Shown piece by piece: positions 26,301 to 52,595 of a DNA stretch of 64,000 nt. The stretch's first letter is position 1. Every line of letters begins with the position of its first letter. Below the pieces are notes generated by a model. The model made no database searches, was not told the origin of the DNA, and worked only from the letters and a program-made list of their open reading frames with translations. A program made the translations under genes and the position numbers. The DNA is from Antedon bifida (Eukaryota; Echinodermata; Crinoidea; Comatulida; Antedonidae), in NCBI GenBank assembly GCA_963402885.1, contig OY727101.1, positions 9,620,917 to 9,684,916 on the forward strand. Reading direction: 5' to 3'.

Positions 26301-29300
26301 TTTCGACTTAGAAAAATTCGACTTAGAAATAAAAATTACACAGTAATGTATAGGAAAGAATTGGGACTTTCAAAAAAATTCGACTTTCGCGATTTTTCGA
26401 CTTACGCGAATTCGACTTAGGCGGAGTCAACTGTATTCTCATACCGGGTGTTTATTTAATTTTAAATTAGGCCTGAACAAGACAGTGAAGAGGCACGGAA
26501 TAATACGTACACGGACATACGACGAATACACACACACGCACGTCATCATTTTTACAACATATTTGGTGATATGATGCAATTTTATAATGGATAATGATGG
26601 GATTGCCTTTCCGGGCTTTAATCAAAAAATGTTCATTGTAATACTAATAATAGTTAACTAATTAATAATTAATAGTTAGTTTATTAATAAAGATTGTTTT
26701 AAATACTTAGTTTGTTGCATATGAAATAAAAGACACAGACGTAGCCTTCGATACCTATAAAATTTCATATTTAAATATCTTAAACTATGTTTACAAATTG
26801 TCATTTTTGAAGGCACACATCTTTCTCCTAGACCTGTAAAATAGAAAATAAAAACAATTTAATTATTATTAATAAATATTCATCGAACAAAGTAAAAATA
26901 ATTTAGATCAAAACATCATTTTATCGCGAACAAAATTAAATGATCGATGATCGATGTACTGTGACCTGAGAGGCTACTAGTACAACACGGCGGGGCTTCT
27001 TCTTTTTATTACCTACACGTTCCGTGTTATTTTGTGTTGAAATTGCGCAAAAATATCAAATTGCGTAATTTTAATTTTATGCATTTCAACACCCTGTGAT
27101 AACTGTTTGGCATTTCTAAGTGCTTTGTTAGTCACTTCAGTATGGGTATTAGGAATAATATCTTTAAATTTTTCATGGACACTCCTCTCAAACTTGTATT
27201 TAATAATATAAATAAAATAAATAAATAACTTTTCTGCACTTCGTATTATGAATATATTTACGTCATTACGTCAAATTTGAGTTCATAAAATTGAGAATTT
27301 GTTAAATTAGGGTTCATAATTAAGGGTTTTTCCTGTAAATGAGTTATTAAATTAATCTTAAATGTAGGTGAAAGTTTTACATAGATTCCATAGATAATCT
27401 GTAATCATGTTTTTCAAAGAATACATGATTACAATCTATTCTAATTCTTATATACACATTTTTGTTCATATCAAGCAGACAGGACTGACAAAATTTGCAA
27501 TTTTCCTGCAACATTTCATGTTTGTGGAAATTAAAGGCAAGCGCAAAAATGTTGGGACTTTACGGTATTCCTGATAGGCCTTTTTACTGGGATTTTGCTA
27601 AGCAAGATTGATGCATTATTGCATATAGTCTCCTGTAGATGAGGATAGTTTCTTCACAAACAATACAGCATTGAATATCTTAGATAACAATACCACACCT
27701 GTATATTATACATTGAAACTTAAATTACACTACACCTTTAACAAGACAATTAAAAGTAATAGTTATAAAGATGAAATCTTTAGTGGCGACTTTGCGATGG
27801 GGCGACTTTGCGATGAGGCGACTTTGTGTTGGGCGACTTTGCGATGTAACATGTAATTTTATTACGAATTTTGCTCTTACATAAATGTATAACAGATTAC
27901 CCACAAACATCAAATATTAAAAATATAAAATCTTTAAAATCACGAGGAAAATTAGCAGCTATCTATTCAACAAACCCAGAGGCCTATTTATAAAAGCTAT
28001 TGCAAAAAAAAAAAGAGAATGAGCGAAAGTCTGGGCACAATAAACCCTTAAACAAGAACTTTCCAGACATACCATTTTTATTCACATGGGTACATAAAAA
28101 ATAGTATATTTTTAACCTCAAAGACACAACACTTTTCGAAATGTCACGAACGTGTTCAAAAATGCTGTAACGAAATTCGCTTCATTGGGATACCTACTAT
28201 TAATAACCAGGTAAGCATAAGTTAAAGATGCTGTAACGAAATTCGCTTCATTGGGATACCTACTACAGTCGACTCCGCCTAAGTCGAATCTAATGGGACC
28301 GGTATAAAAATTCGAGTTACGCGAACTTCGACTTACAGATTTGCAAAAAAAATGCTAGGCCTAGGCCTAGGTTCACTCACTAGCCGCGCTATGGCTAGGC
28401 CTTAGACCCTGCCCTGTCGCGACCGCGGCCCACGCGATGAGCCTTCTTGAATTGAGTTTGCTTAGCTAGCTAGCTAGGCCTAATAAATGCTAAGCCTCTT
28501 TTATTGGCAATGATAAACTGTATTTTCTTTTATGGTTTAAGCCCGAAACAATACGAAAACGTATAATAAATACATTTCGGTTCTTATTCGAAATCGGTAT
28601 CCATTGTTTATTGCCATCTGTCTAGCACAAAATGGGTACCCACAAAACGCCGCTCAAGTTCTCAACTCTGAAACGAACTCATACACTATACACTAGCGCG
28701 AGTTGTAGGACGCCGCCTATACTATACAACCTGATTGAGAGAACCGATATGGTCCCACATTATATCCTCTGTCGTTTGTTTATCGAATTACGTACGTTTC
28801 ATCGGCTTTTTTAGCGCGTTGTTGTCGCGTGATTTGTGACTTCGACTTATACGATATAAATAACTAAAGAATGTGTGTATTCGGACCGCAAAAAGACGTC
28901 GACTTAGACGAATTTCGACTTAGAAAAATTCGACTTACAAATAAAAATTACACAGTAATGTATAGGAAAGAATTGGGACTTTCATAAAAATTCGACTTTC
29001 GCGATTTTTCGACTTACGCGAATTCGACTTAGGCGGAGTCGACTGTATTAATAACCAGGTAAGCACAAGTTAAGGTAAGCAGAAAATTGACAAGGAATAC
29101 ATACTGTATTAATGCTACCGTTTTTTTACCTGATAAATTATTGTAACATCCAATTTCAATGATCTTCATTTTTTCTTTCATTTCATCAGATATAACAAAT
29201 TGGTCAGAAATTTGCAACATTTGTGTAAGAGGGTTTGCTTTCTGCTGCAGACTCTTTATGAACAGTAATGCACGATGGTACTTTCCTATTGCTTTTCTGT

Positions 29301-29412
29301 ACTCTTTCTGTTTATATAATGTATTTCCTTCTGTTTTGTAGAGATCCGCTTGCATGATTTTTCCAGCTACTGATGAAGGCAAAGTTGTTCTACCTTCAAC
29401 TATCTCAGTCAT
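17257..29412 (-). CDS. TTC9C-like: TTC9-family tetratricopeptide repeat protein (TTC9C-like), three coding exons
   Basis: Three minus-strand exons join exactly in phase to 198 residues: 29412-29130, 22920-22732 and 17381-17257. Residues 21-55 form a first TPR (LYKTEGNTLYKQKEYRKAIG), residues 90-120 a second (CYNNLSVCLLQ across the first splice) and residues 124-155 a third (VKAFYRQGLAYYYKHNF). The end carries KKYIAKCESEL and MYKNMFGKM, matching the QLYLGMFG-type tail of vertebrate TTC9C. TTC9 proteins are about 170-220 residues long and act as TPR adaptors, probably binding chaperones or prolyl isomerases; this is family knowledge. The start is supported by an in-frame TGA just upstream (GTT TGA AAG) and by the match to TTC9 N termini. 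Splice sites are GTAAAA/AG and GTATGT/AG. Both introns are loaded with inverted-repeat elements, yet the coding frame is intact. Confidence 0.9.
17713..17880. repeat. Dispersed repeat, copy 2 of 2
   Basis: Matches 15537-15705: CGGATAACTCCTTGTAACTG, pyrimidine run, then ATAACTTTGTCAACATATGG and GTTGTGCACCTCCTAT. It lies in the second intron of the TTC9-like gene. The open frame at 17622-17816 is this repeat. Confidence 0.65.
18300..18900. repeat. Diverged direct repeat of about 340 bases in intron 2
   Basis: A block with TGACGTCATCGTATGGCC, CGTCATAGCTCATCACATTT and CGCTTATCCGTACC near 18330-18440 recurs as TGTTGTCATCATATGGCC, CGTCATAGTTTATCACATTT and CTACGTATCCACATTT near 18668-18780. A further weaker GACGTCATCAT word lies near 18842. 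No coding sequence is visible between 17900 and 19500. Confidence 0.6.
19502..22560. mobile_element. 3.1-kb long-inverted-repeat element flanked by TA, arms built of repeated units
   Basis: The ends read GTATCCCCATTTTA and, inward from the right, GTATCCCTATATTA, with TA outside each. Arms run to about 20560 on the left and from about 21280 on the right; even inner words pair (AGAAGCATGGCCAACTT near 20425 with AAGTTGGCCATGCTTCT near 21409). The outer third of each arm is four diverged units of about 140-170 bases. Each has AAAATGGCCGCC and its mirror, a CATATCTCAGCTTCTACATC line and a TTTGAGGGTCAAGGAATC line. The spacer 20560-21280 has a 91-residue frame at 20890-21165 that I do not recognise. 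The element lies in TTC9-like intron 2, 171 bases from exon 2. Confidence 0.8.
22732..22920 (-). CDS. TTC9C-like: TTC9C-like exon 2
   Basis: 189 bases starting after the acceptor CTCCATAG and ending ATAATTG before GTATGTTT. The alternative AG eight codons later would put a TAA in frame, so the upstream acceptor is chosen. It completes NNLSVCLLQ across the junction, as expected for TTC9C. Confidence 0.88.
23590..27846. mobile_element. Possible 4.3-kb element with short tandem AAGTCGCC termini
   Basis: The left end has AAGTCGCCTCATCGCAAAG followed by GTCGCCCCAACGCAAAGTCGCCC. The right end (27785-27846) is the inverse of this with four GGCGACTTTGCGATG-like units. Such multi-unit inverted termini are unlikely by chance, but I cannot show a target duplication. 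The interior is AT-rich, has no recognisable gene, and contains the pogo-like MITE at 25651-26433. All of it lies in intron 1 of the TTC9-like gene. Confidence 0.5.
25651..26433. mobile_element. Pogo/Tigger-like MITE, copy 1
   Basis: Ends CAGTCGACTCCGCCTAAGTC on the left and, inward from the right, CAGTTGACTCCGCCTAAGTC. TA follows on the right, while the left flank is CA, a probable mutation of TA. Subterminal words AATTCGACTTAGAAAAATTC repeat the end sequence. It is almost identical to 28266-29045, so both moved fairly recently. The small open frame with MGTHKTPLKFS occurs in both copies but has no known domain. Confidence 0.8.
28161..28265. repeat. 66-base tandem duplication that became a MITE target
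   Basis: 28161-28226 (AATGCTGTAACGAAATTCGC to AGCATAAGTTAA) is followed by a second copy starting at 28227. The second copy is cut at its TA by the MITE and resumes at 29048 (TTAATAACCAGGTAAGCACA). The intact first copy shows the empty-site sequence. Confidence 0.85.
28266..29045. mobile_element. Pogo/Tigger-like MITE, copy 2, with TA target duplication
   Basis: Ends CAGTCGACTCCGCCTAAGTC at both termini, TA at 28264-28265 and 29046-29047. The length of 780 bases is close to copy 1 (783). Insertion is dated after the local 66-base duplication. Its right end lies 84 bases from the exon 1 donor of the TTC9-like gene (29129), so it is in intron 1. Confidence 0.88.
29130..29412 (-). CDS. TTC9C-like: TTC9C-like exon 1 (coding)
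   Basis: Encodes residues 1-94 plus one base, ends TTATCAG before a GTAAAA donor. A possible 5' untranslated-region acceptor (TTACAG) lies 28 bases upstream of the ATG at 29441-29443, so the promoter and a non-coding first exon probably lie further right, in 29.5-30.7 kb. Confidence 0.88.
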
Positions 29413-29440
29413 TGTATAACTTTTCTTTCAAACTATTTTT

Positions 29441-48043: not shown

Positions 48044-48974
48044 AGGATTGCCCGCTTTTCGATACATTAAAAACAATCTCATTTGCCGACTGATACGTAG
48101 CCCTACACCAGTTTTAGTTTAAAATATATAGCTTTTATTTTATATAGAAAAAACGTCACCATTCCAAAAGGGGGAATCCCAGATTTTGTAGTTTTAGCGG
48201 CAGCGCGTGCATGGCAAGCGTGCAGCTCAATATGGCCGTTTCAGCAGCCAAAACAAAATATCTGTTAATTTTTCAATCAATAAAAAAAGTGCGCATGATT
48301 AGTCATTACCAAACAACCAGATGCCCAATCACATTGCAACAATTTGTCCTTCACGTCAAAGGTTAAAAATGATCGCATTTATCCGATAATTATCTGATTT
48401 AAATGAGAAAAAAAAGAATATCCGCTACGAATATTTCGATTCATTCTGGGAACATCCTTGTATCAAAATATAGATCTAATAAACACATTACTGAGGGTTC
48501 TTACTGAGACTAAACCAACCAACAATATAAATAAATACTACCTATCAATTCAAAAACGACCAGGCCCAGTGTGTTATAATTTACATTGAAATTTCCATTA
48601 TTTCGTCTATTATGTAGGCCTAACCGGACTAATATCCTGCCATTGTAATATGAACTACTATATTTGCACTTTTTGCGTTCCATACTTTTTAGAGGCCGAG
48701 TTGACGGATTAGTTTTTGGCCGAGTTGACTTGAGGCCGACTTGACTTGGGGCCGACTTGACGTGGGGCCGAAATGGTTTAGGGCCGAGTTGACCTGCACC
48801 CTTTTAACCCACTGTACTTGGTAAAGTAACACAATATTATTTTGCGACAGTAGTATGCACATACGTATAGGTATAGGCTTATTTGATATTAAAATTGTAT
48901 TGATTTGGTAACTATATTGAGTTAAAATGGATTATATTATAACTTAATGAAACTTTTTTATTTCTTTCACTCAG
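48044..48974. repeat. Spacer with tandem GGCCGAGTTGACTTG words (48690-48800)
   Basis: Between about 48692 and 48797 six variants of a 17-18-base word (GGCCGAGTTGACTTG, GGCCGACTTGACTTGGG) follow each other, ending AGTTGACCTGCACCC. The design resembles the termini at 23590/27785 and the cluster at 30110. An opposite copy is not seen nearby. The rest is AT-rich. An intron acceptor (TTTCTTTCACTCAG) ends it. Confidence 0.55.
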
Positions 48975-48975
48975 C

Positions 48976-50342
48976 ATGGACTGTAAACACCTTAAGAATA
49001 TACAATCTGTGTGTAGGGTTTGTGGCCAAGGGCTTAAACTTTACAAAGGAAATTGTGCCCCTTAAATCAAAAGATGTTACACAAACCGAGACCTCATAGT
49101 TAAAGAGATGAAATTTGTTGTTGAAAATGATGAAGTCGAAGTTCATCCACAAAATCTATGTCATCTGTGTTACATAAAACTCAAGTCGGGCACTCAACGA
49201 ATCCAACCCATTCAATTGGCAGCCTCATCCTTGTGTCGGAGAGTGTGAAACATGTAAATCATTTACAATTCAAGGCAGACCAGTAAAAAGGAAATGTGGT
49301 GTTGGGGCAGAACAGCATCAAATACAAACAATTATTAACCAAAAAATACATGATCATTTCAATTCACTTCATACACTACCATCAGTGCCAAATTCATTTG
49401 ATATTATTGGTTGTTTCGATGCATATAGTAATTGTCATAATGTCTGTACCAGTCCAGTTGCTTTTCCATGTAATCATGTATCATGCAAAGCTTGTGCAAG
49501 GCCATTATTTGTTGATGGTGTGGATACTGTACTGAATGTTCTTGTCATTTCAATGTTCATTTTTCATCAATTGTTGCAGGTAGATGAATATGACGCATTC
49601 AATAATGAGTATATTGATATAAATCGACTTTTAAAAGTGAAATAACACTAATGATTGTAGATGAATATGACAGACACGTAAATATGTTGATGAGTATATT
49701 GATATAAATTGACTTTTAAAAGTGAAATAACACAAATATTTGTAGATGAATATGACGTGGACACGATATACAATGTTTAGATTGTAACAAGCGCTGATTA
49801 ACTGCCGCTCAGGAAATTTCATTACAGCTCTAATAGCTAAACTAGCAAGATCAGATATGAGTGCTCTCGATGCTGTGTATCACACAACTTGTTTAGCAGG
49901 TTTGTATAATGAACAGCGAGCTTGTGAGAGAAAAAGAGAACGAGAAAATACAGATAATGAATCACACCAACAACATCTCTCTTCACTATCACAATCACTT
50001 GCATTTGCAGAGATAGTAACAGAAATTGAAGAAAAGAGATATTGTGAGGTTGAACCTGTTTTTATGCTGTCCCAATTGTATAACGGGTATTGTGATAGGG
50101 TGGCTGAACTAGAAACCAATGAATATCTAAGGAGAGAACTTAATAGAACACGGTTAAAAAAGAAACTCATAGAAGCATGTGGCTTGCATGATGAAGTTGA
50201 TGTTAAAGGACATGTCTTCCTCAGTTTCAAAAAGGGGAATTTAGCAAAGGCTCATCGGAATTTAGATGATGAAATCCTTATTCTAACAAAAGCTGCCAGT
50301 ATATGTCGTCGTGATAAATTCATTCATTGTCTTTTTACAATA
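48976..50342 (+). pseudogene. N-RAG-TP-type gene fragment: RAG1-N-terminus-like zinc modules
   Basis: After an acceptor at 48973-48974 the frame opens with ATG and encodes VCRVCGQGLKLYKG, an in-frame TAA at 49063, then VHPQNLCHLCYIKL. After a frameshift near 49195 come FNWQPHPCVGECETC and a basic GRPVKRK. Then comes a RING-like core (about 49400-49505): NCHNVCTSPVAFPCNHVSCK plus ACA. This order (C-x2-C, C-x2-C, CxxxCxxC, RING) is that of the RAG1 N-terminal region, and N-RAG-TP elements in molluscs carry it without the RAG1 core. After a gap with AT-rich direct repeats, 49857-50342 encodes AVYHTTCLAGLYN and a coiled, charged segment to ICRRDKF. This is the N-terminal module of the family of copies A-D. 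A stop and frameshifts make it a pseudogene. Confidence 0.75.
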
Positions 50343-51247
50343 CCCTTCATTTATGAATGTCCCAATAGCACCATAGAAGGCCGACTCCAAATGGAAGTTT
50401 CCAAGCAAGATGAGAAGCTTATCGAACAGAGCGCTTCCAATGCCTGGATCGAGTATGCCTGGATCGAGTATGCCTTGAGAGCCACAGCTAAATCGTAGGT
50501 AACAACACCATATTCTTGATTGGTTTCAATGGCAACATTCATACTTCTTTTCATGGTTTCGCGAACAACATCATTTCTGGTTGATGGGGCAGATATTGGA
50601 TCCATGTACATAATTTTCTGTTGTGGCAGGGCATCATTCACAAACTGTGTATAAAATCCAGGAAAAAGTGGAAGTGGCTCATCAACTTTGGACAAAAGCA
50701 ACCAGTAGAAATCAACTGTATGAAGTGATATAAGATTATTTGATGTTCTCTGATAATTGTTTGGAACTGATAAGTCAAATTTGGCTTTTTTTAACTGCTT
50801 GTAATATGGCTCAATTTCACGTTCCTTTCCATCAAACTGCCTTCTTTTCTTCCCACTTCTGATACTAGAAACACTTGCCATGTCATCTGGTTGGTCTGAG
50901 TTGGCCTCTTGTATGTTCTGGTAGCAGATCCCAACTGTAGCACGGAGGGTATCTTTCCCGTCAGTTGTATCCATATTAACGTCATAATTATCCCAAGCAA
51001 GTCCTGTGGTATAGTCTGAATACATTTCAACACCGTCTGGAGCATCTTGACCATTTTCCTCTGCTGAAAATGCAAACTCTGTCTCTAATGACTTGACTTC
51101 GTCATAACTTGGGCTGTGTCCCAGACGATTCAATATACGTAGGATTAATTTGGAACCAGTTAAAGTTCTTAGACCCAATCCAAGTACTGTGTGTTTCCAA
51201 GGCCGAACAGTACCCCTTGATGTGTTATACACTGCATCTGATGACAT
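50343..51247 (-). pseudogene. Copy C: middle part of the same family in inverted orientation
   Basis: Read on the minus strand from about 51247: GTVRPWKHTVLGLGLRTLTG, ILNRLGHSPSYDEV, AWDNYDVNMDTTDGKDTL, VGICYQN, MDPISAPSTRNDVV, TYDLAVALKAYSIQA. After a one-base shift, LFDKLLILLGNFHLESAFYG and a GTFINEG end near 50343. GLGLRTLTGS matches copy A (GLTVRHLTGS), and the DLAVALKAYSIQ block matches copy D (FDLGVIMKAF), so they are one family. A short duplication AYSIQAYSIQA is visible. The longer frame upstream to 51487 is an artefact running through the LINE. It meets the plus-strand fragment tail to tail at about 50343. Confidence 0.75.
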
Positions 51248-52595
51248 GCCTAAATTTAATTTATATTTCACAAATATTGCCCCAAAACTTGCAAATAAAA
51301 TCAATACTGACACCTGTAACAAATCTTTTGAACATTTTCTCTCAAATAAAACAAATAACTTTAATTTTGAAAATGTAAATGAAGATACAGTTTTGGAAAT
51401 TATAGATAAATTAAAATAAAAGTCAAGTTGTGGTTGGGATGGTTTATCAACGAAATTAATTAAATCAATTATAATCAAACCACTCACAATAATTATAAAT
51501 CAAATGATAAACACAGGAATTTTTCCTGATAAACTGAAAATAGCCAGAGTTATACCTTTGTTTAAAAATGGTGATAACTCTTGTTTTACAAATTATCGTC
51601 CAATTTCGTTGCTCCCTGCAATATCCAAAATTTTTGAAAAAGTAATTTACAACCAATTATATTTGCACTTTCAAATAAATAAATTATTTTATAGCAGCCA
51701 ATATGGTTTTCGGTCAGGCCATTCTACGGAATTAGCTGCACTTGAGCTTGTAGATAAAGTTATTCAAGACATGGAAAATGAAATTATGAAATACCAATTA
51801 ACATTTATTTGGACCTATCAAAAGCATTTGATACATTGGATCACAAAATAATGTTGCATAAATTGAATCATTATGGCCTTCATTCGAATTCACTTAATCT
51901 TATGAAGGATTATTTAACTAATTGTAAACAATATGTGGACATTAATGGAACTTAATCTGATATTTTACAGATAACTACAGGTGTTCCACAAGGATCAATA
52001 CTGGGTCTGCTTTTGTTTATCATATACATAAACGATATCGCAAACGTTAGCACTATTTTTAAAACTATAATATATGCAGACGATACAACACTTTCAAGCA
52101 CCCTCAGGACATCCAATTAACAACATTCTCAACATTGAACTTGATAAAGTTAGTGAATGGCTTAAATTAAATAAATTATCTTTAAATGTGTTGAAGTCGA
52201 AGTATATGATATTTCATATGAGTAAACGTCGTGTTGATACGTTGGATATAGAAATTGACAATGTTAAGATTCAGCGGGTTCATAATTTCAACTTCCTTGG
52301 TATAATAATTAATGAACTAAATTGGAATAGCCATGGTGATTATATTTCAAACAAGATTTCCAAAACTGTTGGCATTTTAAATAAACTCAAGCACTTTATC
52401 CCAGCAAATGTTATGAATATTTTATATAACTCTTTAGTTGTTTCACACATAAATTATGGTATACTGCTTTGGGGTTATGCTTGTAAAAGAGTAACAATAT
52501 TACAGAAGAAAGCTTTACATATTATTACTCAAAGTAAATACAATGCCCATTCAGAACCTCTTTTTAAAAAATTCAGATTTACATCAATTTGTTGA
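51245..52595 (+). pseudogene. Non-LTR retrotransposon reverse transcriptase (jockey/CR1-like), 5'-truncated
   Basis: Starts at PKFNLYFTNIAPKLANKI, then after a stop at 51418 SSCGWDGLSTKLIKS, a FTNYRPISLLPAISKIFEKV block, QYGFRSGHSTELAALEL, DLSKAFDTLDHKIMLHKLNH (after a shift near 51810), [20 protein letters not shown] and the catalytic YADDTTL (about 52074-52094). The C-terminal thumb (SEWLKLNKLSLNVLKSK, INYGILLWG) ends near 52595. At least one stop and two frameshifts are present, yet the catalytic residues remain. Its 5' end abuts the inverted family copy C, as expected for a truncated LINE insertion there. Confidence 0.85.

Follow-up and report, generated by a model that had tools for sequence, protein, structure and literature searches.

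RAG1-like zinc modules beside a repeat-borne protein family in a crinoid: probably the decayed 5' end of a Chapaev-type transposon

Zinc modules resembling those of the RAG1 N-terminus lie close to the N-terminal part of a large repeat-borne protein family ("the body") in a 64,000-nt stretch of Antedon bifida DNA, the whole of which was analysed and is referred to here as the window. We interpreted the modules, with high confidence, as the decayed 5' end of a Chapaev-type transposon adjoining the remnants of unrelated elements. The arrangement is probably not a new fusion gene. Since no Chapaev catalytic sequence was found in the window, the copy was assigned through its relatives, and by sequence it would belong to the Chapaev group.

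The modules would correspond to the first coding exon of a cut-and-paste DNA transposon, now decayed. Among relatives in this genome, a first exon that is open over 326 aa and contains the zinc modules, the RING and a further Cys/His cluster would lead into the exons of a DDE-type transposase. By analogy with RAG1, the front part probably serves zinc-dependent contact with DNA or protein, dimerisation and possibly ubiquitin transfer, and cutting and joining would be carried out by the downstream DDE-type domain, judging from the relatives.

The window element appears to be truncated at a minisatellite. What lies beyond it would be left over from another family of large-protein elements, most likely from two of its members, which are placed tail to tail; one of these was apparently cut by a retrotransposon. 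In all likelihood the window copy of Chapaev is dead: a stop and frame changes interrupt it, and its catalytic part was not found. The whole assembly would be a pile-up of dead elements without a working function.

Zinc modules and RING in the window

Positions 48958-49579 (+) encode a degenerate RAG1-N-terminus-like zinc module and a RING, as seen in the translation and the Pfam matches. From 48976 on this strand, the motifs CRVCG, LCHLCY, CVGECETC (CxxxCxxC) and the RING core follow one another as they do at the N-terminus of RAG1. The zinc (Chapa) module, delimited by PF12560 and tblastn, covers 48958-49300 (+) and contains one stop and one frame change. The RING core (C..C ... C.H..C..C) covers 49430-49531 (+), and its last Cys pair, located by eye, is out of frame. 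The stop is at 49063-49065, and the frame changes are near 49196 and within the RING.

The unmodified single-frame ORF at 49066-49248 matched PF12560 (RAG1_imp_bd) with E=0.0014, under the family cut-off. When the zinc stretch was read through, the match to PF12560 rose to 28.3 bits (E=1.6e-6), above the cut-off of 23.3 bits. None of ten Cys-preserving shuffles of the read-through matched any Pfam family. The proposal of the earlier note that zinc modules in RAG1 order are present at this site was thus borne out, both by the motifs and by the RAG1 profile.

In a PDB sequence search, the RAG1 chain 21wb_A aligned in register with the zinc stretch, weakly (E=0.0064). A hydrogenase (5odc_E, E=0.0058) ranked just above it and was judged to be a chance match, as were the matches to DUF465 and NCBIfam.

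The scores of the window RING were under the cut-off for all RING profiles, including zf-C3HC4_3 (14.3 bits). The earlier note had allowed for a RING from an unrelated E3 family; taken on its own, the RING was assigned to no family by Pfam profiles or PDB sequences, and the best PDB matches of its ORF were to RNF168 (E=0.1). The intact first exon of a Chapaev-type copy on contig C8 aligned by tblastn with the Chapa module and RING of the window (E=1.8e-17), and the alignment reached 49531.

The window has 214 ORFs that reach 60 aa, and the 150 longest of these matched 23 Pfam families at E<=0.05. Neither a RAG1 nor a Chapaev catalytic family was among them, and the PF06918 catalytic domain was not found in the window copy among the window ORFs. 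Two of the 150 ORFs (unnamed in the result) matched tetratricopeptide-repeat families; an ORF at 29032-29427 (-) has a look that we take to be TTC9-like.

Chapaev-type and P-type relatives in the genome

The 315.6-Mb assembly containing the window (27 contigs) was searched for relatives. The sole other long DNA copy of the zinc/RING stretch among the matches listed was on contig C10. It aligned by blastn with window 48811-49490 at 84.7% identity in an alignment of 708 columns, 165 bp of which are 5' flank (48811-48975, +) common to the two copies. This flank is probably an untranslated part of the Chapaev element and ends in the pyrimidine-rich ..TTTCACTCAG ahead of the ATG. Immediately 5' of the Chapaev piece, at 48718-48793, the window contains a tandem repeat of the 16-bp unit GGCCGACTTGACTTGG.

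The homology of the C10 copy to the window broke off within the RING. After ~140 bp of unrelated sequence came, on the same strand, PF06918/DUF1280 (E=2.6e-16) and then further transposase exon pieces. DUF1280 (PF06918) is the Chapaev transposase family according to the available part of PMC3985635.

On contig C8, the copy at L040 has a 326-aa open frame with PF12560 (35.4 bits), the RING and further Cys/His clusters; the RING of the C8 exon gave 19.8 bits with zf-RING_5, under the cut-off of 27.9. Its downstream exons matched PF06918 (2.9e-13) and contained the motifs GDYEYL and GRHYCLW. The DDE-type transposase exons of the relatives carry GGDKGGG ... FGDYEYL.

Nineteen Chapaev-type places were found at C8:21.55-22.21 Mb (0.65 Mb, on both strands), together with one on the small contig C22. 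The 326-aa first-exon frame was open at 17 of the 19 places on C8, one of which, L031, was also read as 290 aa. One C8 copy was 98.5-99.9% identical to parts of two further C8 copies and to the C22 copy, and it shared with one of these a unit of ~8.7 kb with common ends. In this unit we saw a direct repeat of 176 bp but could make out no clear inverted termini. The clustering may reflect hopping or amplification within the region. On C12, all seven exon pieces were matched by a diverged relative.

The position of PF06918 relative to the zinc module was examined over the genome. PF12560 was listed at 26 places at E<=1, some of them weak; this number is a lower bound, as the broken window copy was itself absent from the list and other broken copies, possibly beside bodies, can be missed. 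At 23 of the 26 places the module was followed on the same strand by PF06918, 0.4-1.6 kb away, against an expectation of about 0.001 per site for uniform placement. The co-locations amount to about four independent cases, 20 of the 23 being one element family (C8 and C22) and the rest being C10 and two on C12.

The remaining three places were two P-type transposases and C8:21145021, which matched residues 1-155 of C8 exon 1 at 89% and had no other exon within its 10 kb. Counted from the catalytic domain, 23 of 68 PF06918 places had PF12560 within 10 kb upstream; many Chapaev copies were without a detectable module, and these counts are again lower bounds.

These results bear on whether the zinc module came from a RAG1-like (RAGL/Transib) transposon instead of Chapaev. 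Mollusc RAG1L proteins retain N-terminal zinc motifs and a RING, as described in the accessible part of PMC7204232, and such a source would fit the motifs. However, the Chapaev catalytic family lies downstream of the closest copy and at 23 of the 26 genome places, and no RAG1 core family was matched by the 150 longest window ORFs. An origin from RAGL is therefore extremely unlikely, and a decayed Chapaev-type 5' end remains the preferred reading.

At C8:20158272-20160479 (L043 4773-6980, -), a single 736-aa open frame contains a zinc module of RAG1/ZAD type and a P-type transposase. Its module gave 20.0 bits with zf-AD and 18.2 bits with RAG1_imp_bd, both under cut-off, and PF21787 was matched with E=3.2e-24. 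At C8:22963235-22968621 (L044 2736-8122, +), the zinc module gave 30.1 bits with RAG1_imp_bd, above cut-off. The module lies upstream of a weak P-type HTH match and also, at a distance of ~4.2 kb and on the same strand, of PF21787 (RNase H piece, 7.9e-25).

Of four comparisons between the Chapaev and P-type modules, that of C12 with L043 was the best, at 40% over 67 columns, and the others gave 26-32%. The E values, 6e-14 to 1e-8, are those of pairwise, one-against-one searches. P elements usually carry a THAP finger at the front. No published joining of a RAG1-type module to a P-type transposase was found in the open-licence literature searched. In 2015, it was stated that Chapa and RING are not encoded by any known transposable element beyond the Transib/Chapaev group (PMC4411706, in the part available).

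It is possible, if somewhat doubtful, that different transposase superfamilies (Chapaev, RAG1 and P-type) have adopted the RAG1-type N-terminal zinc module as a portable part. If this were true, the RAG1 N-terminus would reflect module exchange among DNA transposons, and elements with 'RAG1-N-terminus only', such as N-RAG-TP, may be Chapaev-type first exons read in isolation.

The seam and the two body halves

The RING and the YHTTC module of the body (49878-49892, +) are on the same strand, with a spacing of about 350 bp. The seam between them is occupied by a minisatellite of ~2.3 units of 85-90 bp (49580-49780, +), arrays of which also occur on C7, C10, C11 and C13. The earlier note had placed the YHxxC module directly downstream of the zinc modules; the module was found where expected, and the direct junction was not, with the minisatellite intervening.

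The minisatellite was considered as a part of the body element and rejected. Six array loci (L011, L013 and L015-L018, with flanks L012 and L014) were without a body or Chapa match, in a comparison that left out RING-query rows matching the minisatellite alone and DNA rows inside the minisatellite.

The plus half of the body, the N-terminal part of the family, occupies 49788-50342 (+; tblastn span 49830-50321) and stops after CRRDKF. The minus half (50343-51253, -; tblastn to L051) represents the middle of an element from a different body subfamily, with both ends cut. The two meet tail to tail at about 50321-50343, the minus segment running from 51253 down to 50343. This confirmed an opposite-strand body middle meeting the first half at ~50343, as had been claimed.

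At its other end, the minus segment is bordered and cut at ~51254 by a 5'-truncated non-LTR retrotransposon (reverse transcriptase; 51254-52595, +), recognized from its ORFs and, by eye, a YADD-type motif. RVT_1 was matched by two of the 150 window ORFs, which are not named individually in the result.

The closest relative of the plus half among the matches listed was a 601-aa open frame on C16 (E=1.0e-9). Next in rank (E=3.8e-7) were open frames of 1,397 aa on three contigs, C7, C11 and C12, which represent an open multi-copy protein (on C7, L052 488-4678, -; equal-length frames at C11:26449124 and C12:2350502). With the C7 protein, the plus half showed 30% identity over 171 columns (E=3.6e-12, in a blastp search against this single protein). 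No other DNA-level copy of the N-terminal part of the body was found in the genome search.

Two alignments related the minus half to pieces of L051, one of 240 columns at 45% and one of 43 columns at 65%. The minus half had at least 45 genome matches, itself included, and a short piece on C1 was 90% identical to it.

Within the window, body pieces at ~5.1-6.4 kb and 14.5-15.3 kb were significant against the open 1,397-aa protein, and pieces at 5.0, 13.5, 57.0 and 57.5 kb gave z scores of 8.5-13.4 against the minus segment at 50-51 kb. The plus half (49788-50342) alone showed no significant similarity to the other window body copies. The multiple copies in window and genome established the body as a genuine repeat-borne family. 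Its presence at 4.8, 13.7 and 56 kb, as described in the earlier note, held for the pieces at ~5.0-6.4, 13.5-15.3 and 57.0-57.5 kb, without reaching significance for the plus half taken alone.

A question separate from that of fusion is whether the two halves are one element with an internal inversion. Both fall in order on the 1,397-aa protein, the plus half on residues 153-310 (30%) and the minus half on 395-535 (27%) and 655-678, as an inversion would predict. However, the minus half was 45-65% identical to L051, the N-terminal part of which had no similarity to the plus half (z -0.3), and the plus half resembled the 1,397-aa type instead (30%). In addition, the window search did not recover the body stretch that precedes the minus half in L051 (residues 1-112 of its piece d). 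An internal inversion is therefore unlikely. Since the halves resemble different subfamilies, two elements would be favoured by sequence, and of the 'inversion or two-element collision' proposed earlier, which stands, collision is the preferred form.

The family, about 1,400 aa long, was without a Pfam family above cut-off. The C-terminal part of the 1,397-aa protein contains the motifs EADTR, DTD and GCDTTS, followed in another frame by a Cys-rich stretch. These motifs recall, we presume, a FEN/XPG-type nuclease, and we assumed that the family might be Academ-like, with a nuclease-like C-terminus. Academ was not adopted as its name: the match to DUF6589 was marginal (E=0.011), and the best PDB match of the nuclease-like C-terminal part had E=0.45. 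Structure prediction of the minus segment alone was uninformative (mean pLDDT 30). It had no relative among plasmid and phage proteins, and no relatives were found in viral contigs or genome contigs of the viral and prokaryotic collections.

A true fusion would require an element, lost or rare, with RAG1-type zinc modules and a RING ahead of the YHxxC body. The common strand, the correct order and the spacing of about 350 bp in the window are as such an element would have them. However, a detected body match was within 70 kb of none of the 26 PF12560 places (nearest 70.6 kb), the minisatellite occupies the seam, and the genome search gave no further copy of the N-terminal body part at the DNA level. 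The body matches compared were 54, of which two were the window itself and several were pieces of one place; they are lower bounds, since the searches listed neither the 5-kb nor the 14-kb window pieces, and 'never adjacent' applies to detected copies alone.

Moreover, both body relatives examined carry zinc modules of their own. The C7 1,397-aa protein starts with CIIC..HHSC and CIFC..YHMDC, and contained no RAG1 module or RING over its entire length. L051 has its own YHxxC and CIFC modules, and no zinc/RING match was found in it (best E 0.40). We therefore considered a true fusion very unlikely. The earlier idea that the zinc modules are part of the YHxxC body was not supported, PF06918 being the partner at 23 of the 26 places, and among the matches listed there was no second copy in which the modules and the body are in that order as one gene.

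Significance and comparison with known systems

The result takes away a tempting case, probably a mistaken one, of a foreign body fronted by a RAG1 N-terminus. The clustered Chapaev-type copies on C8 provide material for the study of a RAG1-type zinc/RING front part outside immunity, and the P-type transposases, which have this zinc module too, are directly relevant to how RAG1 gained its N-terminus.

N-RAG-TP of Aplysia was reportedly described by Panchin and Moroz in 2008. Like the window, it has RAG1 N-terminus-like sequence on a mobile element; the two were compared by description only. In the parts of the sources available (PMC8355894, PMC2996935 and PMC13337447), N-RAG-TP is entirely RAG1 N-terminal-like sequence and, unlike the picture given in the earlier note, is not described as fused to a foreign body. 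Both halves in the window, plus and minus, are pieces of the large-protein body family (~1,400 aa).

With RAG1, RAGL and ProtoRAG, the window shares the order of N-terminal zinc motifs and RING, and PF12560 is above cut-off on read-through. It differs from RAG1 and RAGL in having no RAG1 core in the 150 longest window ORFs, and its relatives carry the Chapaev catalytic domain.

Within Chapaev, two subgroups only have the Chapa domain together with a RING, as stated in the available part of Kapitonov and Koonin 2015 (PMC4411706). This N-terminal order, a Chapa zinc module and then a RING, with PF06918 downstream, is shared by the relatives on C8 and C12; in C10, PF06918 goes with the module and half of the RING, and in C22 with the module. 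The window copy differs from them in being merely a broken 5' piece, which carries the Chapa module (28.3 bits on read-through) and, at scores under the cut-off, the Cys/His pattern of the RING.
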